Of a DNA stretch of 36,354 bases, positions 6,553-17,320 are shown one piece after another. The notes under the pieces were generated by a model. It did no database searches, was not told where the DNA came from, and saw only the letters and a program-made list of their open reading frames with translations. The translations under genes were made by a program, and so were the position numbers. Location of the stretch: contig KE159528.1 in the NCBI GenBank assembly GCA_000403215.2, positions 12,754 through 49,107 on the forward strand. The letters run 5' to 3'. Numbering within the stretch: the first letter of the stretch is position 1; every line of letters begins with the position of its first letter. Origin of the DNA: Lachnospiraceae bacterium A4 (GTDB lineage: Bacteria; Bacillota; Clostridia; Lachnospirales; Lachnospiraceae).

Positions 6553-9500
6553 TCATCTGCTGACAAAGTAGACATCGGGCAATATGATGGGATACTCCTG
6601 CCCGTCCGTCGTATCTGTCCAGCCGACCACAAAGCGCACGCTCGCACTCTCCATCACATAGCCCTGCCTTTGATATTTCTCGATTTCTTCCAAAAACTTT
6701 TTGGAAAAACGAACCACCTGAACGGTTTTGCCGTCCGACGCTACCGAAAGCCCGGACGCACTCGTCAAAAGCTTTGCACCAGAGACAATTCTCTGGATAA
6801 GATTTTTCTTATCCTTGAAGAAGCCAAGATAGACGTCCTTATGTGATAGCTGCATCAGGATTTCTTCGGGGCGCCCATACAGGGTACTGTCCACCTGCGC
6901 CCTCACGTTCCCCGTGATCAAGCGGTCAAAATCTTTGTTGTTATAAAAGAGATACAAGTCCTTTTTCGCCCTTGTCATGCCCACGTACAGCAGCCGTCTG
7001 CGCTCGTCCGTGTCAAACGAAACATGGTCGTCAAGCATCATAACCACCTCGTCAAACTCCCTGCCCTTTGACTTGTGCATTGTGGACACGACCACGTCCC
7101 GGCTGTCATTTTCGAAAAAGTCCTCGATGTTGGATTCATGCAGAAACACCTCCAAGTCCGAGCGGTACTTCCGTTTGTTCGCCAGTGCAAACGCTTCAAG
7201 AATGGCAAGGCACAGCGCCAGATTGGTGCTGTCCTGATAGACCGATGCCATCCTGTCTCTTGCCGCGTCCCACAGCTTTTGTGGTATCACAGGTGTATCC
7301 AGCTCTTTTGTAATTCTTTTCATAAAAAAGCGCAGCTCAATCATATTGTACAGATCAAACCCGTCATTGGACTGAATCAGCTTCGCCCGAATGCCTTTTT
7401 TCTTTAGAAGTCCCACGACGCGCAGTGTCTCGTCGTTCGTGTTGGTGAGAATGCACACACTTCCCCTGTCCCGCACCTTGACTGCCTTTGCCGCCACAGG
7501 CTCCTCAAGATTTCTGCTGGCGCACTGTATCAGCTCTACCACGCCCGGCGCTCCGTCCTTCACAGCAGTGATCGGCGCGCTTTTCATTCTGTGCGAGATC
7601 TGCCGCACAAACTGATTGGCAAACGCTACAATATTGCCTGCGCTTCTGTAATTGTCCAGCAGCTCATACTTTTTCGCATTGTCCCGCGCCAGAAACTCCT
7701 CAAAATACCGGGAACTCGACCCGCGGAACTCATAGATATTCTGGTCGTCATCGCCCACTGCAATCACGCGCAGATCATCATTGCGCTCAATCAGGGCACT
7801 GACAAGCCTGTACTCATTCTCGTCCATGTCCTGTGCCTCGTCAATCACGAGCACTGTCTTTGTAATCCGCCCGATTTCCACGTCACCGTTTGCAATCATC
7901 TGTGACGCGTCCTGCACAACGGTCTTGGCATCCTCGAGATTCCCCATACGGCCAATCAAGTCAAAGCAATACGAATGAAATGTTTTGATTTCTATAAAGC
8001 CCGCCGCATTTCCGATTAAATCATACAGACGTCTGCGAAACTCCGTCGCTGCCGCCCGCGAAAATGTCACCATCAAAAGCTGTTCATGCTTCACATCCTC
8101 CAGCAGCATCAGCGAGGCGAGCTTGTGCACAAGAACCTTTGTCTTTCCACTCCCCGGTCCTGCCGCCACTACAATATACTTTGACACATCATTGTCGATA
8201 ATCTCCCGCTGCACATCGGACAACTCCGCAAAGAGCTTATTATACTTTTCGGGCGTGATATTCCGGTTAATCTCATTTTTGCGGTTTCCCTTGAAGTACT
8301 TGGCAATAAACAGTTTGTAGTCCATCTGAAAATAGTCGTTTACAAACTGTAACGCCTCATCATAATTTCTGACCATCATATTGGCAAACTCACCCACAAT
8401 ATGAATCTGCTGCATCTTCTGTTTATAGTATGCATTCAGGCTTTTATAGTCGTCTGCCTTATAGCGGATTTTGTTGTCCATCTCAAGCCGTGTAATCTGC
8501 ATTCCACTGTACAGCACAAGGAAACCGCCCTCTAGTTTCATGGCATCAATCTTCGCCAGATAGAGAAGTGCATCCTCAATATCTTTATCCGTAATATTCT
8601 CTGTAATATTCTCCGCTGTGTTCTGTTTTGCATTCTCCTTACCGGGCTGGGCTGCGCTTTTTTGGTATTGCGTCTTTAATTCCAATATGGAAAATCCCAC
8701 CGCCTGCTGCTCCCCGCTGTCCGCTGTCTCCCTGCTTTTCTCAAATAAATACTTCACGATAAAGCCAGACAGCCGGATACACTGCTGCCGCTGTTCCCAA
8801 AACGCCTCGGCAGAAAGTTCCGGCACAATAATGGTTCTTGCGGTCGTGTTCTCGATGCTCTTTTTGATATATTTCTTGATTGTCCAATAATAAAGCACTG
8901 TCTTGAATGCATTCACTGTCGCATTTTTTACGCCGCTGCTGACTGCACTTTCATTTAACTCTTTGAGGTTGATGCACTGCCCCTCACCACTGAGCTGGCC
9001 GATGAGAAACTGCTCTAGGGCGGCATATCTTTTCAGCACATTGAGCGACTTGTTCTCCGTGTCCGTCTTTAAGACAAACGCTGTCAAATCCTTTGTGTTT
9101 GCTAAGATATTCTCCTCCCGCAAAATCTGAATCAGCTTGAACGTCTCCTGCCGCTCGATGCCGAGCCTGTCCGCAATGTAATCCACCCTAGACTCCGCAT
9201 CGTCGTTTTGTGCATTTGCCACACTCCTTGCCGAGATCAGCATACTCATGATGCGCTTGGCATTTAGGCGCTCATTTTCACTCATTTTCATCGACGCTTC
9301 TATCTTGAGCGCAGCTTCCATCATATTTTTGACAAGAATACTCGTGGCATAGATGTGCGGCACGTTCTTCCCGCGCTTGAGATAGCCGGCGTTCTCCAAT
9401 GCCTGCACCGCTGTCCTGACGCGCGTCTCTACGTCTGCCACCGTCTCGTCCCATCCCGCCTGACGCGCGATCTCGAGCGGTGTGCGCTGTATGATGGCTC

Positions 9501-11397
9501 TGTTCTTGGTCAAATCCTTGACCGCCTTCCAAACCTGCTGAATCTCACTGATACTGAGTTTCGTCTGGTTCAGCAGCATAAAATGCTTGTCCAAATCCCC
9601 GTCTTGAAACAGCACATAGCACTCTGCCTGCAAATTCTGGTCTCTGCCCGCGCGCCCTGCCTCCTGCACATAATTTTCCAGCGAGTCCGATATATCATAG
9701 TGTATCACCAGCTTGATATTGGGTTTGTCCACCCCCATGCCAAAGGCGGAGGTTGCCACCATCACCTGAACTTCATCGCGGATAAAAGCATCCTGATTCG
9801 CCTGTTTTTCCGCCTTGTCCATCTTTCCGTTAAAGGCAAGCGCGGCGATACCGTCATCACACAGCTTCTGTGCAAGCTCTGTCGTGCGCTTTGTCCTCGA
9901 CACATACACGATGGTGGGACAGTTTTTCTGTTCAATCAGCCAGCGCAGCGTCGTGTATTTCTCCTCGTCACTCTCCTTGTAAAGCACCTCATAGCGCAGA
10001 TTTTTCCTGCCCGCGCCCGAAGTGTACAGCGCTAAATCCAAGTCCAGTTTTTCTTTGAAATATTCCTTGATATCGCTAATGACCTTCTGTTTTGCCGTCG
10101 CAGTAAAGCACGAGACCGGAATCCGTTCCGCTAACTGCTTCTTCTCCTGCAATTCCCGGATAAAGTCACCGATGTAGAGATAATCCACCCGAAAATCCTG
10201 TCCCCACGCGGAAAAGCAGTGCGCCTCATCAATCACAAAACGCGCAATCACCCGTTTTATCAGCAAACGCTCGATCGTCTTAGAGCGCAAAGACTCCGGC
10301 GCGACATACAATATAGAAGCAAGCCCATTCTCGACGCGCTCAATAGCCTCAGCCCGCTCGATCGGGCTGAGCAGTCCATTGATTGTCACTGCGTCCACGA
10401 TGCCCTTCTTTTCCAGATTGTCCACCTGATCTTTCATGAGAGACTGTAGCGGAGAAATCACGACGGTCAATGCCTTGGAAAGCTCCCCTGCCATCAGTGC
10501 AGGCAGCTGAAATGTGATGGATTTTCCGCCGCCTGTCGGAAAGATGGCGAGCAAGGACTGGTTGTCAACTGCCGCTTGAACTGCCTTCTCCTGCAAATTT
10601 TCTCCATCGTATTTCCGAAAATCATCATATCCGAAAATCTGGTTTAACCGCCGGTAAATATTGAGCTGGCTGCGGCAGTATAAACAGCCCTCGGCACAGA
10701 CCGTATTGCGCAGCAGCCGTATTACATTGGAGACTGCCGGGTATCGTATATTGACCCAGTTTGGTATCATAGACGTGCTGTCTTCTGCTGAAATGATTGC
10801 CAGCACATAGGCAAGCTCTACCGGATAACGCGCAGCAATATACGCAATCTCACTGTTGCCACACAATTTTCCATGATAAAAGCTTTTGATGAGCGAAGAA
10901 GCATCTCCCCGCGGATAGTAATTGAGATAAGAAAAAAAGCCACGAAATCCTTCTTCTTGGCTGAGCAGGTCCGCATAAATATCCTTTTGCAGCTCGTTGA
11001 GGCTTTGAAAGGCATTGACCTCATCGTAAAATAATTCCATCGCTTTTATCGCATCATTTAAGGGATTGTTCAGGGAATCGGTCAGCAGTTTGTCGTCCTT
11101 GAGCAGTGCGTGATAGGGCTTGTTCGGAAACAGCAGCGGCGACAGATAGAGCGTGTCTATCATGTCCGTAATTCCCGCTGCCTGCATCTGCTGCCTGATA
11201 TATCTGGCGTCGTGATGGACAATATTGTGTCCACATAGAAATCGCTTGCCGCCAGCGCTGTTCTGCACCAGAAAATCCTCAAACGCCTTGGCTGATTTTG
11301 TATGAATATGTGTGCTTCCGTCTACGGCCGCGCCGTAATCTAGTACCGCACCGCGCTCGACGCTGACCTCTGTGTCAATAAATACAACTGTGTACAT
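6553..11397 (-). CDS. Exonuclease-RecQ-UvrD fusion helicase
   Basis: A single 1614-residue protein carries three nucleic-acid modules. Residues 1-130 resemble a DEDD (DnaQ-like) 3'-5' exonuclease, with FIDTE at 6-10 and GHNIVHHDARY at 56-66. Residues 265-600 are a RecQ helicase core: Walker A TGGGKS 288-293, DEAH 390-393, motif VI near QEAGRAGRD. A winged-helix-like region follows. From about 1055 there is a UvrD/Rep superfamily 1 helicase: GPGSGKT 1080-1086, DEAQD 1186-1190, and near the end MHKSKGREF and YVGMTRAKK. A CxxxCxxC cluster (234-241) precedes the RecQ core. The ATG at 11397 has AAGGGG upstream. An earlier in-frame ATG at 11508 lies upstream of the promoter and is rejected. It probably unwinds and processes damaged or foreign DNA; its exact role is unknown. 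Confidence 0.9.
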   Translation of the reverse strand: MYTVVFIDTEVSVERGAVLDYGAAVDGSTHIHTKSAKAFEDFLVQNSAGGKRFLCGHNIVHHDARYIRQQMQAAGITDMIDTLYLSPLLFPNKPYHALLKDDKLLTDSLNNPLNDAIKAMELFYDEVNAFQSLNELQKDIYADLLSQEEGFRGFFSYLNYYPRGDASSLIKSFYHGKLCGNSEIAYIAARYPVELAYVLAIISAEDSTSMIPNWVNIRYPAVSNVIRLLRNTVCAEGCLYCRSQLNIYRRLNQIFGYDDFRKYDGENLQEKAVQAAVDNQSLLAIFPTGGGKSITFQLPALMAGELSKALTVVISPLQSLMKDQVDNLEKKGIVDAVTINGLLSPIERAEAIERVENGLASILYVAPESLRSKTIERLLIKRVIARFVIDEAHCFSAWGQDFRVDYLYIGDFIRELQEKKQLAERIPVSCFTATAKQKVISDIKEYFKEKLDLDLALYTSGAGRKNLRYEVLYKESDEEKYTTLRWLIEQKNCPTIVYVSRTKRTTELAQKLCDDGIAALAFNGKMDKAEKQANQDAFIRDEVQVMVATSAFGMGVDKPNIKLVIHYDISDSLENYVQEAGRAGRDQNLQAECYVLFQDGDLDKHFMLLNQTKLSISEIQQVWKAVKDLTKNRAIIQRTPLEIARQAGWDETVADVETRVRTAVQALENAGYLKRGKNVPHIYATSILVKNMMEAALKIEASMKMSENERLNAKRIMSMLISARSVANAQNDDAESRVDYIADRLGIERQETFKLIQILREENILANTKDLTAFVLKTDTENKSLNVLKRYAALEQFLIGQLSGEGQCINLKELNESAVSSGVKNATVNAFKTVLYYWTIKKYIKKSIENTTARTIIVPELSAEAFWEQRQQCIRLSGFIVKYLFEKSRETADSGEQQAVGFSILELKTQYQKSAAQPGKENAKQNTAENITENITDKDIEDALLYLAKIDAMKLEGGFLVLYSGMQITRLEMDNKIRYKADDYKSLNAYYKQKMQQIHIVGEFANMMVRNYDEALQFVNDYFQMDYKLFIAKYFKGNRKNEINRNITPEKYNKLFAELSDVQREIIDNDVSKYIVVAAGPGSGKTKVLVHKLASLMLLEDVKHEQLLMVTFSRAAATEFRRRLYDLIGNAAGFIEIKTFHSYCFDLIGRMGNLEDAKTVVQDASQMIANGDVEIGRITKTVLVIDEAQDMDENEYRLVSALIERNDDLRVIAVGDDDQNIYEFRGSSSRYFEEFLARDNAKKYELLDNYRSAGNIVAFANQFVRQISHRMKSAPITAVKDGAPGVVELIQCASRNLEEPVAAKAVKVRDRGSVCILTNTNDETLRVVGLLKKKGIRAKLIQSNDGFDLYNMIELRFFMKRITKELDTPVIPQKLWDAARDRMASVYQDSTNLALCLAILEAFALANKRKYRSDLEVFLHESNIEDFFENDSRDVVVSTMHKSKGREFDEVVMMLDDHVSFDTDERRRLLYVGMTRAKKDLYLFYNNKDFDRLITGNVRAQVDSTLYGRPEEILMQLSHKDVYLGFFKDKKNLIQRIVSGAKLLTSASGLSVASDGKTVQVVRFSKKFLEEIEKYQRQGYVMESASVRFVVGWTDTTDGQEYPIILPDVYFVSR

Positions 11398-11449
11398 CGC
11401 TTCCCCTTTATACCAAATATTTCCAGAAAAATTTGTTGTGTTTGGGAAT

Positions 11450-11478
11450 ATTATACAATAATTTGTCGTATTTATCAA
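11450..11478 (-). promoter_or_regulatory. Sigma-A promoter of the fusion helicase
   Basis: On the minus strand TTGATA (11473-11478) and TATAAT (11450-11455) are separated by exactly 17 bases. Transcription would start near 11443, giving a leader of about 45 bases before the ATG at 11397. Confidence 0.75.
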
Positions 11479-11596
11479 TCTGAAATATAGTACTATGTAC
11501 TGTATCATTCGTTTACTATTGTAATTCTGTTCTATCTAATTGTATCTGTTTCTGCCGCTCTTTGGTCTGTTTTTGATTGTGCATTTATATAGGTAT

Positions 11597-12337: not shown

Positions 12338-13924
12338 ATGAAAACAATACGCTATTTTAACACAGAGGGCTGCTGTCTGCCAGCAGAACACTACATGGTG
12401 CCTCTTGATGACAGGATCAAAACAATCCGAGAACTGTATATTGACCGCAAAAAATATTTCGTCATCAACAGAGGTCGTCAATATGGCAAAACGACAATGC
12501 TGGTGGCACTGGCTGCGGCGCTTCGGACAGATTTTGCTGTTATTCTTATGGATTTTCAGTTGATGAGTACCACAAGCTTTGTGGAGGAACCCGCCTTTGT
12601 CACATCGTTTGTCAGCAGTCTGGCAGATCTGGTTGCGGAGGACGACGATTTGGCAGACGCAATCGCAAACGAAGCATACCAGAAAATGACCACACTCTGC
12701 GAACAGCAAAAGCTTTCCATGGATGAAATGTTCCGCTGTCTCAGCCGAATCTGCAAAGCAGCCAAAAAACCTGTCATTCTGATGATAGACGAGGTGGACA
12801 GCGCATCAAACAATCAGGTATTTATCGACTTTCTCGCACAGCTTAGAGGTTATTACCTCGCCAGAAGCCGACGCCCATTTTTTCATTCTGTCATACTTGC
12901 TGGAGTCTATGATATCAAAAATCTGAAATTAAAGATACGTCCAAATTCAGAACACCAGTATAACAGTCCGTGGAATATTGCAGCTGATTTTGATGTAACG
13001 ATGCGTTTTTCATCAGAGCAGATTCAATCTATGCTCAATGAATACCAGACTGATCACCAGACTGAAATGGATATCGTTCAGATTGCAAACGAGATTTACC
13101 AATATACGTCAGGCTATCCCTATCTTGTGTCTGCCCTATGCAAAATCGTAGATGAAAAATTGTCTGGCTGCAAATCTGTCTGGACAAGGGAATATATTGT
13201 GGAAGCCGTTAAAATCCTGCTCGGTTCAAGGACAACACTGTTTGACAGTTTGACCAAACACCTCAGTGAATTTCCTGAAATGAAACAAATGTTATATACA
13301 ATGTTGTTTCAGGGTGAACAAATTGCATTTAACCAGTATAACCACACCATAGAGCTTGCCTGCATGTTTGGATATGTTATTGCAGATGGCAGTACTGTCC
13401 GCGTCGCAAATCGTATTTTTGAAATTTGCTTATATAATCTCTTTCTGTCTGAGGAAGAACTGGCGAATGCGATGAGTCATCAGGCAAAGCAAGATAAATC
13501 TCAGTTTCTTTCCAATGGCAGACTGGATATGGTACGGGTTCTGGAAAAATTTGTACAATATTTTCACGATATTTATGGAGAAAATAATGAAAAATTTATG
13601 GAAGAACAAGGACGCAAAATTTTCCTATTATATCTGCGTCCCATTATAAATGGCACTGGAAATTACTATATTGAGGCACAGACAAGAGATGCAAGACGGA
13701 CTGATATCATTGTAGATTATGCAGGTGAACAGTTTATTATCGAAATGAAAATCTGGCGGGGACGCGAATACAATGAGCGCGGCGAAAAACAACTGGCAGA
13801 CTATCTGAACTACTTTCACCTAGACAAAGGCTATCTGCTGAGCTTTAACTTTAATCAGAAAAAAGAAACAGGTGTTAAGACAATCACAGTCGGTGAAAAG
13901 ACCATCGTGGAAGCTGTTGTCTAA
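12338..13924 (+). CDS. AAA-type ATPase with C-terminal PD-(D/E)XK-like domain
   Basis: The 528-residue protein matches the clostridial AAA-ATPase-like family. Walker A is NRGRQYGKTTM (44-54), Walker B is PVILMIDEVDS (145-155), and a winged-helix-like middle follows. The C-terminal 75 residues hold the nuclease-like core RTDIIVDYAG...FIIEMKIWRG, with the Asp and Glu-x-Lys arrangement of PD-(D/E)XK enzymes. Such proteins are common and often multicopy in gut clostridia, and their function is unproven. A TTG at 12284 could extend the protein by 18 residues, but the ATG at 12338 has AGAAGGAG upstream and fits the conserved N-terminus. A nucleotidyltransferase gene follows and is probably cotranscribed. 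Confidence 0.88.
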   Translation: MKTIRYFNTEGCCLPAEHYMVPLDDRIKTIRELYIDRKKYFVINRGRQYGKTTMLVALAAALRTDFAVILMDFQLMSTTSFVEEPAFVTSFVSSLADLVAEDDDLADAIANEAYQKMTTLCEQQKLSMDEMFRCLSRICKAAKKPVILMIDEVDSASNNQVFIDFLAQLRGYYLARSRRPFFHSVILAGVYDIKNLKLKIRPNSEHQYNSPWNIAADFDVTMRFSSEQIQSMLNEYQTDHQTEMDIVQIANEIYQYTSGYPYLVSALCKIVDEKLSGCKSVWTREYIVEAVKILLGSRTTLFDSLTKHLSEFPEMKQMLYTMLFQGEQIAFNQYNHTIELACMFGYVIADGSTVRVANRIFEICLYNLFLSEEELANAMSHQAKQDKSQFLSNGRLDMVRVLEKFVQYFHDIYGENNEKFMEEQGRKIFLLYLRPIINGTGNYYIEAQTRDARRTDIIVDYAGEQFIIEMKIWRGREYNERGEKQLADYLNYFHLDKGYLLSFNFNQKKETGVKTITVGEKTIVEAVV

Positions 13925-13949
13925 CCACGCAATTGAGGAGGACTCACAA

Positions 13950-14726
13950 ATAAAAGAATACAAAAAATTTATTGGCAGCTTTGTACAAAAGAATCAATTA
14001 ATATTAGGTGACAATCTTGTCGGCGTTTATCTCCACGGTTCTGCGGTAATGGGATGTTTCCACCCCAAAAAGAGCGACCTCGATTTTATCATTGTTATTC
14101 AGCATGATCTGAATGCTGCTGTCAAACGTCAGTACATGGATATGGTCGTCGCGCAAAACAGTCATGATGCTATCATTGCTCCCGCAAAAGGCATCGAGCT
14201 TAGCATCGTGAAAGAATCTGTCTGCCGCCCGTTTGTCTACCCGACCCCATTTGTGCTTCATTTTTCCGCAGCACATCTGAACTGGTATCAGACAAATCCC
14301 TCCGATTACATTGAAAAAATGAACGGAACCGACAAAGACTTAGCTGCACACTTTACAATCCTCTACCACAGGGGAATGACACTTTGGGGAAAAGAGATTC
14401 CCGAAGTTTTCGCCGAAGTTGACGCCACATATTATTTCGACAGTATTTGGAATGACATTGAAAATGCAGAAGAAGAAATCACCGAAAATCCTATGTATAT
14501 CACGCTGAATCTGTGTCGTGTGCTCGCCTACCAGAAAGAGCAGCTCATTTTGTCCAAGTTAGAAGGTGGAACATGGGGGCTTGCAAATCTTCCACAAAAG
14601 TATGCACCTCTGATTGCTGATGCCCTGAAAGATTACACAACTGATCGTACCATGAAATTGAATACAGCACTTGCCAGAGAATATGCCGCCTATATGTTAC
14701 AACAGATTCGCATGGAAAATGAATGA
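13950..14726 (+). CDS. Aminoglycoside-type nucleotidyltransferase with apparent AUA start
   Basis: The protein resembles ANT(3'')/ANT(9)-like enzymes with a C-terminal DUF4111-type helical domain. The nucleotidyltransferase motif GS...DLD is at about 30-45 (LHGSAVMGCF, then SDLDF), with metal-binding Asp43 and Asp45. The family transfers AMP to small molecules such as aminoglycosides; whether this one gives resistance is unknown. The start is odd. A strong GAGGAGG (13935-13941) sits eight bases before ATA at 13950, in frame where family members should start. The only in-frame standard starts are GTG at 13872 and 13893 and CTG/TTG at 13914/13917. All four lie inside the ATPase gene and lack a good ribosome site. 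It ends in an ATGAATGA overlap with the next ORF. Confidence 0.8.
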   Translation: MKEYKKFIGSFVQKNQLILGDNLVGVYLHGSAVMGCFHPKKSDLDFIIVIQHDLNAAVKRQYMDMVVAQNSHDAIIAPAKGIELSIVKESVCRPFVYPTPFVLHFSAAHLNWYQTNPSDYIEKMNGTDKDLAAHFTILYHRGMTLWGKEIPEVFAEVDATYYFDSIWNDIENAEEEITENPMYITLNLCRVLAYQKEQLILSKLEGGTWGLANLPQKYAPLIADALKDYTTDRTMKLNTALAREYAAYMLQQIRMENE

Positions 14727-14913
14727 AACATTCTTGAACCAAATCCGCGATATTGAAGCCAGCTATGACCGCGTGTCCGATAATTTTATCCCATTGCTTT
14801 GCCGGCGATACGGCTGGGAAATTGCGGACAGCGAAACAGGCACAGCGCCTTCATATGTTTATGACCGGGATATCGAAAAAGCGTTTTTCAGGACGCCAAT
14901 GTCATTTAGTTAA
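14719..14913 (+). CDS. Small unknown protein with a C-terminus altered by element insertion
   Basis: This ORF encodes 64 residues starting MNETFLNQ and overlaps the nucleotidyltransferase stop by eight bases, so it is probably translated by coupling. I do not recognise the family. The last residues (MSFS and stop) are encoded by the inverted repeat of the cassette that begins at 14897. Joining the flanks across the cassette gives a 66-residue version ending FRTPRFF, so the insertion trimmed and changed only the tail. Confidence 0.6.
   Translation: MNETFLNQIRDIEASYDRVSDNFIPLLCRRYGWEIADSETGTAPSYVYDRDIEKAFFRTPMSFS
14887..14896. repeat. Left copy of 10-bp target-site duplication
   Basis: TTCAGGACGC directly abuts the left inverted repeat and is repeated exactly at 16846-16855, just outside the right inverted repeat. 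Confidence 0.8.
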
Positions 14914-14942
14914 GTCCAACAGGTTAAGTTAAGGTTTAAAAA

Positions 14943-14981
14943 TACCGTTCACTTTCGCAAAAGTGAGCGGTACTCTTTTTT
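14943..14981 (+). terminator. Bidirectional terminator at the left end of the cassette
   Basis: The arms TACCGTTCACTTT and AAAGTGAGCGGTA (14943-14955, 14960-14972) form a stable hairpin followed by CTCTTTTTT. On the minus strand the hairpin is followed by TTTTTAAA, so it can also end the anti-sigma transcript. Confidence 0.85.
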
Positions 14982-15035
14982 GATAACAATCTGCATCAAA
15001 CTGAAATTTTCACATTCTTAACATATCTGACTTCA

Positions 15036-15923
15036 TTAATTGTCAATATCGTTATCTGTTTCTAAATCCCGGTCTTTTCGAATAGACGCATCACTGGTAT
15101 CCACAAGGCTTCCGTCCTCTGCATTCAGATCTATGCCATAGGCATAAATAGAAATATCATCCTCTGTCTGATAACCCACATGATAAATGAAAAGTCCCGT
15201 CTTTGGCTCATCCAAAAATACATCTGCTATCATCCCTTCTGCCGACAGACCAAACTCCGTCTGCAAATATACTTCTGCTGCCTGCAGTGCTTCTTTTTCG
15301 GTAATCCAGCCTTCTTTCTGCACCTTTGCTTTCAGACCTTCTTCTTTCTCCTCCCACTCCTTTCTCGCTTCCTGCGCGGCTGTTCCCTGAGAAACAGCAT
15401 AATCCCTCGTATAATTAAAATCTATGATCTGCAGCAGCTCTTCATCCGTCAGCGTACGGTCAGGAAGGTAAAGAAAACTAGTATCTGGATCGTAGCTGAG
15501 CGAATCATCTGGTATCTGTCCAACACTGTCTGTAAAAGTGATCGTCTGCTGCGGAAATCTTCCGTTCTGATAGGCTTCCTGCATCTGCTGCATGCGTTTT
15601 ATCTCCTCTTTCGAATATTCTCTGGAAAAACTGTCTGCCTCTGCATTGTTCTGGCCCTGCACCATCTGATTAACTGCTTCCAGCTCCTGCTTTGGTATAT
15701 TCTCCAAACGATCTTTTACAAAATACCGGATCGCCGCCTGACTAGGGATAACTGCTCCTGCGATCAATACAAAAGCGGCAGCTGCCGCAGCTGCCTGATG
15801 TAATCTTTTCTTTCCAAACGCTCTGCGATCCGTCTGTCTTTTTACCTTCATGATTATCTCCTTTTGCATTTCTTCTTTCATATGTATCTGGTCCATCGTT
15901 TCTTTTAATTTCAGTCTGTTCAT
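15036..15923 (-). CDS. Anti-sigma factor (single-pass membrane protein)
   Basis: The 295-residue protein has a cytoplasmic basic N-terminus and one hydrophobic segment near residues 44-64 (alanine-rich, then FVLIAGAVIP). A large acidic extracytoplasmic domain follows, ending in repeated Asp/Asn. This is the usual plan of anti-sigma factors that hold an ECF sigma factor at the membrane until an outside signal. The ATG at 15923 overlaps the sigma stop as ATGA, with AAGGAGG inside the sigma gene at good spacing. The earlier TTG and ATG fit the ribosome site poorly. The signal sensed is unknown. It belongs to the cargo of the mobile cassette. Confidence 0.82.
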   Translation of the reverse strand: MNRLKLKETMDQIHMKEEMQKEIIMKVKRQTDRRAFGKKRLHQAAAAAAAFVLIAGAVIPSQAAIRYFVKDRLENIPKQELEAVNQMVQGQNNAEADSFSREYSKEEIKRMQQMQEAYQNGRFPQQTITFTDSVGQIPDDSLSYDPDTSFLYLPDRTLTDEELLQIIDFNYTRDYAVSQGTAAQEARKEWEEKEEGLKAKVQKEGWITEKEALQAAEVYLQTEFGLSAEGMIADVFLDEPKTGLFIYHVGYQTEDDISIYAYGIDLNAEDGSLVDTSDASIRKDRDLETDNDIDN

Positions 15924-16387
15924 CTGCAACATTCCTCCTTCCAAACTACCCGCAGCTGTTCCCTTCCCCGCTGCATCCTCTTTTTGACTGACTGTACTGA
16001 AATACCAAGTATATCAGCAATTTCCTTCATCTGATATCCTTCCACATAATAAAGATAAATAACAGTCCTCTGCTTAACAGGCAGCTCGAAAAGCTCTGTC
16101 AGTGTCTCCTGCTGTTCCTGTTCCATGACCAGACTTTCTGCAAGCACATCGATGGGAACCTGCGGGTGACGGAGTCTAAATCTCAGCACATCTTTACAGT
16201 GATTTGCTGCTACTCTGATGAGCCATGCTTTTTCGTGTTCTGTATCCGTGAAAACCGGCGCCTTTTCCAGGTATCTGCAAAATGTTTCCTGAATTACATC
16301 CTGGGCATCCTGCTCATTGCACAGCATTACAATACAGATCTTATAGAGCATATCGCTGTATGTCCTTACCGCTTCCTCCAAATTCAT
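15920..16387 (-). CDS. ECF-type RNA polymerase sigma factor
   Basis: The 155-residue protein has sigma region 2 (DMLYKICIVMLCNEQDAQDV, then IQETF) and region 4 (LPVKQRTVIYLYYVEGYQM, then KEIADILGISVQSVKKRMQRGR) and no region 3, as ECF factors do. ATG 16387 has AGGAGG eight bases upstream. A longer in-frame ORF back to 16657 is not needed and its N-terminal part does not resemble sigma factors. It is coupled to the anti-sigma gene and probably directs its own transcription and that of unknown targets. It is part of the mobile cassette. Confidence 0.92.
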   Translation of the reverse strand: MNLEEAVRTYSDMLYKICIVMLCNEQDAQDVIQETFCRYLEKAPVFTDTEHEKAWLIRVAANHCKDVLRFRLRHPQVPIDVLAESLVMEQEQQETLTELFELPVKQRTVIYLYYVEGYQMKEIADILGISVQSVKKRMQRGREQLRVVWKEECCR

Positions 16388-16406
16388 ATCTCTCACCTCC
16401 TCTTCA

Positions 16407-16439
16407 CTTATAACACGCACAAAGACGTCAAAAGGTGAC
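16407..16439 (-). promoter_or_regulatory. Possible ECF-type promoter of the sigma operon
   Basis: On the minus strand GTCACCTTTT (16430-16439) lies about 16 bases before GTGCGTGTTATAAG (16407-16420). The start site would fall just before the AGGAGG. The pattern resembles self-recognised ECF promoters (AC-rich -35, CGT-type -10) more than sigma-A. It is a weak call from pattern only. Confidence 0.35.
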
Positions 16440-16769
16440 TTCTCAGTCAAATATTTTTGCAGCAGTTGAATATTGACAATTCGCACTTTCAAGACATTTA
16501 TGATGACATTTGATTTTATACTTGTTTCGACTTTTTCCACGAAAATGGCATTCAATACCTGTGGCCGGATTTGTCCGCTGAGGACAAACCTAAATTCCTG
16601 CACACCTTCCATACGGTATTTTGAAAACGCCTCATCTTGGTATGGCAGCAGCTTCATTGCACAGTATCATATATTAATCAGGTTGATCACTACACTTTCT
16701 TTTCTGGCAGATGACAATCTGTCTTTTTGTGTTGCTTGAATATAGACAAATCTTCCTTAAAAACCAAAC
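16440..16769. other. Leader region between sigma promoter and terminator, no clear gene
   Basis: This 330-base stretch is open on the minus strand in frame with the sigma gene up to 16657. I see no ribosome site for a start there and no recognised protein similarity in the encoded stretch. It may be the remnant of a longer ancestral cargo gene or plain spacer. Confidence 0.35.
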
Positions 16770-16805
16770 TCAGGCAGAGATAGGAATTACAATATCTCTG
16801 CCTGA
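16770..16805 (-). terminator. Terminator at the right end of the cassette
   Basis: Perfect 13-bp arms TCAGGCAGAGATA and TATCTCTGCCTGA (16770-16782, 16793-16805) with a ten-base loop are followed on the minus strand by GTTTGGTTTTTAAGG. It would stop transcription entering the cassette from the HAD gene, so the cassette is shielded at both ends. Confidence 0.7.
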
Positions 16806-16845
16806 AAAGAAATCAACAAGTCAGTGCCTTAACTAAATGACATTG

Positions 16846-16855
16846 TTCAGGACGC
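16846..16855. repeat. Right copy of 10-bp target-site duplication
   Basis: TTCAGGACGC matches 14887-14896 exactly and abuts the right inverted repeat. It contains the stop codon of the HAD gene, so insertion left that gene intact. Confidence 0.8.
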
Positions 16856-17320
16856 CCCGTTTTTTCTGATACGCTCGATTTCCTTTAAAATGTGATCGGT
16901 CCAGTTGTCGTCCTGCCCGCCTACAATCCAAACATGAAATCCATAAGTCCTCCCATTCTCCGCAACGGAGCGGTCATCATCAATATGTAAGTCAATTCGG
17001 TATTTGCTTGGGTATTTGGATGGCATCGCCTCTGTATGCCCTGCCTGCACTTCCCGCGCATGTCTTGCCCCATTCACAATATTATCAAACTTTATTCCAT
17101 AACAGCGAAACAGACCTCGTATGTACTGTTCAGAACGAAAAGAAGTGGTATACACCCACAACTCCATGCCCTGTTCCCGAAGCGCTTTCATAAGCGCTAT
17201 TGTTCCCAGACGCAGCCGTTCCTTATAAATCGCACAGAAAGGAAACCTCAATGGTGCCTCCACCTTAAACTTTTCTTCTGACACAAAAAGAGTATCATCT
17301 AAATCAAACGAAATTCTCAT
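16847..17320 (-). CDS. HAD-superfamily hydrolase
   Basis: The 157-residue protein begins MRISFDLDDTL, the HAD motif I with nucleophile Asp6 and general acid Asp8. Motif II is the Thr in LWVYTTSFRS and motif IV is the acidic HIDDDRSV. There is no large cap insertion, so it may act on a larger or protein substrate or be a small phosphatase. The substrate is unknown. It starts three bases after the GHKL kinase stop, so the two are probably cotranscribed. Its stop lies in the target duplication of the adjacent cassette. Before insertion it would have overlapped the tail of the convergent small ORF. Confidence 0.88.
   Translation of the reverse strand: MRISFDLDDTLFVSEEKFKVEAPLRFPFCAIYKERLRLGTIALMKALREQGMELWVYTTSFRSEQYIRGLFRCYGIKFDNIVNGARHAREVQAGHTEAMPSKYPSKYRIDLHIDDDRSVAENGRTYGFHVWIVGGQDDNWTDHILKEIERIRKNGAS

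Follow-up and report, generated by a model that had tools for sequence, protein, structure and literature searches.

Structure of the Element and Its Borders

The DNA analysed here, referred to as the window, is a stretch of 36,354 nucleotides from Lachnospiraceae bacterium A4. At positions 14897–16845 it contains an element of 1949 bp. Inverted repeats of CAATGTCATTTAGTTAAG bound it on the left (14897–14914, plus strand) and on the right (16828–16845, minus strand) and are identical at 18 of 18 positions; a subterminal GTTAAGTTAAG is found near the left end at 14923–14933. The 10-bp target duplication TTCAGGACGC is present in exact copies on both sides, at 14887–14896 and 16846–16855. Even with up to three mismatches allowed, the 18-mer end occurs in the window at those two sites only, and shuffled sequences gave an average of 0.04 sites. 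An earlier note, made from the sequence alone, had described the exact duplication, the perfect repeats and the length of 1949 bp, and all of these were re-found.

To the left lies a small gene on the plus strand (14719–14913, start codon inferred), the last codons of which are the element's end. To the right lies an intact HAD-like gene of 157 amino acids on the minus strand (16847–17320), which was named by inspection and has no Pfam match, and its stop codon is located inside the right copy of the duplication. When the flanks are joined, the small convergent gene differs in its last codons only and the HAD stop codon stays within the duplicated target, in line with the earlier proposal that removing the element would leave a plausible small gene and an unchanged HAD gene.

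Two genes were recognised as intact inside the element, an ECF sigma factor and its likely anti-sigma factor, and in this respect the previous description was right. It had overlooked a relic of an IS701-family transposase of about 200 bp (16487–16689, minus strand, corresponding to the C-terminal end) upstream of the sigma gene, so that the sigma pair is not the only gene-derived sequence between the repeats. This relic matches eight other sites in the same genome. A tblastn search with seven IS4-group transposases gave no match inside the element.

Cargo Genes

The sigma gene (15920–16387, minus strand) encodes 155 amino acids with regions 2 and 4; PF04542 and PF08281 score above the Pfam cut-off and TIGR02937 above the NCBIfam cut-off. 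The partner gene (15036–15923) is on the same strand, encodes 295 amino acids, and its start overlaps the sigma stop codon (ATGA). By inspection, a single hydrophobic segment separates a short N-terminal part of the partner protein from a long outer part. The protein itself was not matched by anti-sigma family models, and no family model scored above its cut-off. Among 14 aligned members of the partner family, PepSY was matched by 10, DUF4179 by six, the NCBIfam antisigma model by three and RsiV by two, all at E values up to 0.1. No solved structure related to the family was found at E values up to 1, and a structure model from the single sequence was too poor to be used (mean pLDDT 41). The partner, a membrane protein, is likely to be an anti-sigma factor.

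Comparison with a second copy of the element in another genome, described below, gave a dN/dS of 0.52 for the sigma gene (p = 0.28) and of 0.47 for the partner gene (p = 0.036). The frames of both cassette genes have stayed open, and purifying selection on them is weak.

Putative Promoter and Terminators

A putative ECF promoter, GTCACCTTTT-N12-CGTGTT, is located at 16412–16439 on the minus strand, upstream of the sigma gene. The motif ACCTTTT-N12-CGTGTT was compared across 18 sigma upstream regions (the window, the second copy and 16 other relatives) and matched at 12 or more of the 13 fixed positions in 15 of them; as it had been picked by eye from the same sequences, this test is partly circular. 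In these 15 regions, its distance to the presumed start ranges from −47 to −61, and 0 or 1 of 300 shuffles scored as high. The remaining three upstream regions (L023, L242 and L244) gave no match to the motif. The motif is nevertheless truly conserved in DNA that otherwise diverges. When the own genome was searched strictly, with at most one mismatch, the single match was the cassette's own copy, and the reversed control gave three. This result supports autoregulation of the operon and does not point to a wider regulon. Spread of a regulon switch, as envisaged in the earlier note, drew no support from this search.

Near the left end, a 13-bp stem (hairpin at 14943–14972) is followed by CTCTTTTTT on the plus strand, and the reverse orientation likewise gives a good fold with U's at its end. 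The left-end terminator was thereby confirmed and is, on paper, a good one in both directions. Near the right end, an inward-facing hairpin with a T-tract (16759–16806, minus strand) has a folding energy of −21.3 kcal/mol (z −4.9) and is followed by UUUGGUUUUU. The terminator scan missed it because its loop of 10 exceeds the limit of 8 in that scan. An inward terminator is plausible at this position and would lower the read-through that comes out of the HAD gene. Of the inward terminator claimed earlier for each end, the left one therefore stood firmly and the right one as plausible only. Insulation at both ends is not a constant feature of the element, since the left hairpin of the window was not seen in the second copy.

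Related Ends and a Possible Parent Element

Copies of the ends had been suggested as something to search for, and they were found in the own genome as well as in many others, some of them around IS4-family transposase genes. The own genome contains a miniature inverted-repeat element (MITE) of 113 bp with identical 18-bp ends and an exact 10-bp duplication, ATTCAACAGG. It also contains an element of 5246 bp, the ends of which are identical at 16 of 18 positions and flanked by another exact 10-bp duplication, CTCCGTCAAG. The transposase of this larger element (438 amino acids, L008:6886–8202) belongs to Pfam DDE_Tnp_1, scores 168 bits with NF033592 against a cut-off of 115, and shows the DDE residues and the YREK signature LYHARWGIETAFRELK. 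Its passenger genes include two HTH proteins. It is the only paired element with a transposase in the own genome and also differs from the cassette in subterminal sequence. No autonomous element with the exact cassette ends was found in the draft assembly of 40 contigs. Such an element is present in another genome (G358), where it measures 1646 bp and has a 10-bp duplication.

At 16699–16739 (plus strand) lies a stretch with a hairpin (16706–16723) that is matched behind the transposase gene in autonomous IS4-group elements, namely those of G442, G358 and Blautia schinkii. This match suggests that the cassette arose by replacement of the inside of such an element. On this reading, an IS4-group element would probably have had its transposase gene replaced and kept its ends and its hairpin.

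For the subgroup IS4, an end consensus of -AATR--------WTW---- and direct repeats of 10–13 bp are given in Table 1 of PMC2266710. By eye, the ends in the window fit this consensus, and the duplication has 10 bp. A relationship to IS231 was rejected, as the ends begin with CAA and those of the IS231 subgroup and MIC231 with CAT (PMC2266710). The earlier idea of a mobile insertion cassette (MIC) like those related to IS231 thus held for the cassette structure and failed for the assignment, as ends and duplication fit the subgroup IS4 instead. A composite transposon was likewise rejected, as no insertion sequence copy lies at either end.

A Second Copy and an Empty Site

G022, a genome that belongs to the same genus, carries the cassette with about 96% identity over 1.47 kb and with smaller pieces at 84–94%. 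Contig C7 ends within this copy, and contig C180 begins with the remainder. The flanks are TATGGTATGG and TATGGTGTGG, which agree at nine of 10 duplication positions, and the right end of the copy has one change. About 300 extra bases follow the partner gene. Apart from the left hairpin, this copy also lacks the 16699–16739 stretch, and the hairpin of the right end is present. The insertion appears to split an open frame, and no relationship was seen between the sequences outside it and the flanks in the window (best E value 0.25).

The earlier note had further proposed to look for relatives with an empty site, and G022 provides one: on its contig C84, the HAD gene directly adjoins the small gene with no insert between the two, so that this genome carries the cassette elsewhere and the site of the window is naturally empty. 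Because the same unit stands at another site in G022 and the site of the window is empty there, the regulatory pair appears to have turned into a mobile cassette. Between the two genomes, dS was 0.043 for the sigma gene and 0.074 for the partner gene versus 1.43 for the HAD gene, a value which is near saturation and represents the flanking divergence by this one gene. Set against this single flanking gene, the low divergence of the cassette indicates that it spread recently, long after the two species had separated.

A match to the partner protein was found in 15 of 38 genomes of the genus; identity was above 90% only in the own genome (G000) and in G022, and the other listed matches reached 29–46%. 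Among 397 genomes of the family, with at most two candidates per genome scored, no further copy of the cassette was found. A strong match to the HAD gene was limited to G016 and G022 among 35 other genomes of the genus (five candidates scored in each), in neither case with an adjoining cassette. Two collections of plasmids and phages gave no match to the cassette, and viral contigs contained no relative of the partner protein.

Proposed Mechanism and Alternative Explanations

Taken as a whole, the locus is very probably a mobile insertion cassette on ends of the subgroup IS4, which contains an operon of a sigma factor and a likely anti-sigma factor with its own promoter and would be moved in trans. 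A compatible DDE transposase of the IS4 group, supplied elsewhere in the cell, would cut at the 18-bp ends, and insertion would create the 10-bp target duplication. Once in place, the operon would be read from its own ECF-type promoter, with the end hairpins on either side. With a promoter of its own and hairpins at its ends, the operon should work independently of the site, which we put forward as a proposal.

A decayed transporter insertion sequence is an unlikely explanation. The locus would then be the immobile remnant of an IS4-group element that once carried a transposase together with the sigma pair and has since been deprived of the former. The hairpin that follows the transposase in relatives is retained near the right end, and the own genome has an IS4-group element with extra genes, the one of 5246 bp. 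However, no remnant of an IS4-group transposase was matched within the element, and the G022 copy also has no recognised transposase, as the transposase search of G022 gave no match. In addition, that copy sits at another site with its own near-exact duplication. Decay could still account for both copies if each had lost its transposase independently after moving. Much less probable, to the point of being far-fetched, is homologous recombination or a larger mobile element as the source, with the inverted repeats being a pre-existing pair of MITEs. A precedent for such an arrangement was seen at one fetched locus (L181), where two MITE-like pairs flank other DNA, but the 10-bp duplication in the window is exact and lies directly against the outermost ends, and the surroundings of the two copies are unrelated (best E value 0.25 as above).

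A different doubt concerns the cargo and not the mobility. The sigma pair might be a passive passenger that is caught between two ends, decays and has no regulatory role at its new sites. We regard this as a real possibility that falls somewhat short of an even chance. The weak purifying selection would be expected of such a passenger, and the own genome has no strict promoter match other than that of the cassette (one match, with three in the reversed control). Yet in neither copy is one of the two frames broken, the stop and start codons overlap, and each copy retains the promoter motif.

Comparison with Known Systems

Among the closest relatives in kind is MIC231 of Bacillus cereus, a cassette that carries a peptidase gene and is mobilised in trans by the IS231A transposase; MIC231D carries a fosfomycin resistance gene (PMC3913671). 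Like MIC231, the element of the window has IS4-family ends, no transposase and cargo inside, and a target duplication is usual (PMC3913671, PMC1196294). Of the features by which PMC3913671 defines an MIC, those found here are a bracket of inverted repeats related to those of an insertion sequence, no transposase gene, a duplication, and occurrence at different sites together with an empty site. The two differ in their ends, which belong to the subgroup IS4 in the window and to IS231 in MIC231, and in their cargo, as the element of the window carries an ECF sigma operon together with its promoter, and MIC231 a peptidase or fosfomycin resistance gene. Movement in trans has been reported for MIC231 with the IS231 transposase, whereas for the element of the window we infer it.

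Elements of the subgroup IS4, as described in PMC2266710, share the end consensus and the 10-bp duplication, and autonomous relatives encode a DDE/YREK transposase; in contrast to them, the element of the window has no transposase and carries passenger genes. MITEs are also non-autonomous and have the same ends and the same type of duplication, but the element of the window differs from them by its intact genes. Transporter insertion sequences (PMC3129680, PMC9330008) carry passenger genes and keep their transposase, which is missing here, and the 5246-bp element of the own genome is of this kind. According to PMC2266710 (2008), no passenger modules had been observed by then outside IS231, be it in another family or in another subgroup of IS4. 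Among openly licensed papers, none was found that links miniature inverted-repeat, Lachnospiraceae and IS4, and the one found for mobile insertion cassettes and sigma factors together concerns a qnr plasmid. Measured against these sources, the MIC kind is already known, and the IS subgroup and the cargo are new.

The cargo of MICs described in these papers consists of peptidase or resistance genes. If a transcription-control pair moved with nothing but its promoter, signalling circuits would be able to travel as independent units. The presence of the module at different sites in two species and the naturally empty site together make a testable set. It is conceivable, and we suggest it only tentatively, that ends of the subgroup IS4 form a general cassette system in the family and that one of its cassettes is a self-starting circuit of promoter, sigma factor, membrane sensor and end hairpins, which would work wherever it landed and spread an envelope-sensing regulator between species.

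Census of Related Ends

With one mismatch allowed, the 18-mer was found in 97 of 397 genomes of the family, and a reversed control in three of them. Across named genomes, the exact 18-mer was present in at least 105 stretches, with Bacillota, Bacteroidota, Chloroflexi and others among the matches listed. The loci inspected further were 100 chosen stretches (20 + 80) plus those fetched previously, and 13 duplicate loci of own-genome ends, of the element in the window and of the copy in G022 did not enter the count. Elements were counted if their ends lay within 9 kb and were flanked by a duplication of at least 8 bp, in which one mismatch was tolerated from a length of 9 bp; the count misses elements that are interrupted by the end of a contig or have no duplication. 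Of the resulting 54 duplication-flanked elements, 31 were shorter than 350 bp, 18 had an IS4-group transposase match, four were longer with no such match and one was masked. Among the 18, four were partly masked (L223, L224, L225 and L332) and one of 530 bp (L083) had a match of only 57 amino acids.

The left 91 bp of the element in the window, including the hairpin, recur at 87% identity beside an unrelated gene in G279, and this match was limited to the own genome and G279 among the 397 genomes. The G279 element was dropped as a candidate and not counted as a cassette because no right end was found.

Transposase-less elements with IS4-type ends appear worth screening for cargo. Among the four longer ones, two measured 494 and 820 bp, and two contained sizeable genes, namely the element of the window and one of 2065 bp in G219, which carries genes for a metallo-hydrolase and a methyltransferase.

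Related elements and possible remnants

Named genomes (L086-L190, among the matches listed) contain short elements that are bounded by the same 18-bp inverted ends as the window cassette and have duplications of 9-11 bp. As the records that carry them are titled Bacteroidetes, Chloroflexi and others, this end type is either very old or very widely spread. Within the window's own genome, a 113-bp MITE (L009:4718-4830 = G000:C36:62717-62829) is identical to the cassette at its ends and is flanked by an exact duplication of 10 bp. A 5246-bp IS4-group element (L008:3231-8476 = G000:C8:69230-74475), likewise with a 10-bp duplication, contains a transposase together with two HTH genes, a gene that by inspection is lipoprotein-like, and other unknown genes. 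Traces of this element, namely the same end sequence and 53 aa of the transposase at 96%, were seen in genome G032. The interiors of several IS4-group elements in genome G010 (L221-L225) are masked (N), which hides their content.

A second transposase-less cassette, of 2065 bp, was found in genome G219 (L227:1634-3698, contig C37), with perfect ends, the duplication GCCCCGCGGG, and metallo-hydrolase and methyltransferase genes as cargo. In the copy of the window cassette in G022, a genome of the same genus, about 300 extra bases after the partner gene (L050:128-433, contig C180) contain the end-like CAATGTCATTTGATTAGA and are possibly a nested remnant. A stretch of 91 bp at the left end of the window cassette, including the hairpin, recurs in a different genus (L330:4098-5389, G279:C15), adjoining an unrelated gene with weak acetyltransferase matches, all below cut-off; a right end for this element was looked for and not found.

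Other genes in the window

Directly upstream of the small flanking gene lies an AadA-like nucleotidyltransferase gene (13872-14726, + strand) with an AadA_C domain, scoring under all NCBIfam cut-offs among the matches listed. Further left, 6553-11508 (- strand) encodes a 1651-aa protein that combines helicase domains of the DEAD-box and UvrD types in a single chain.
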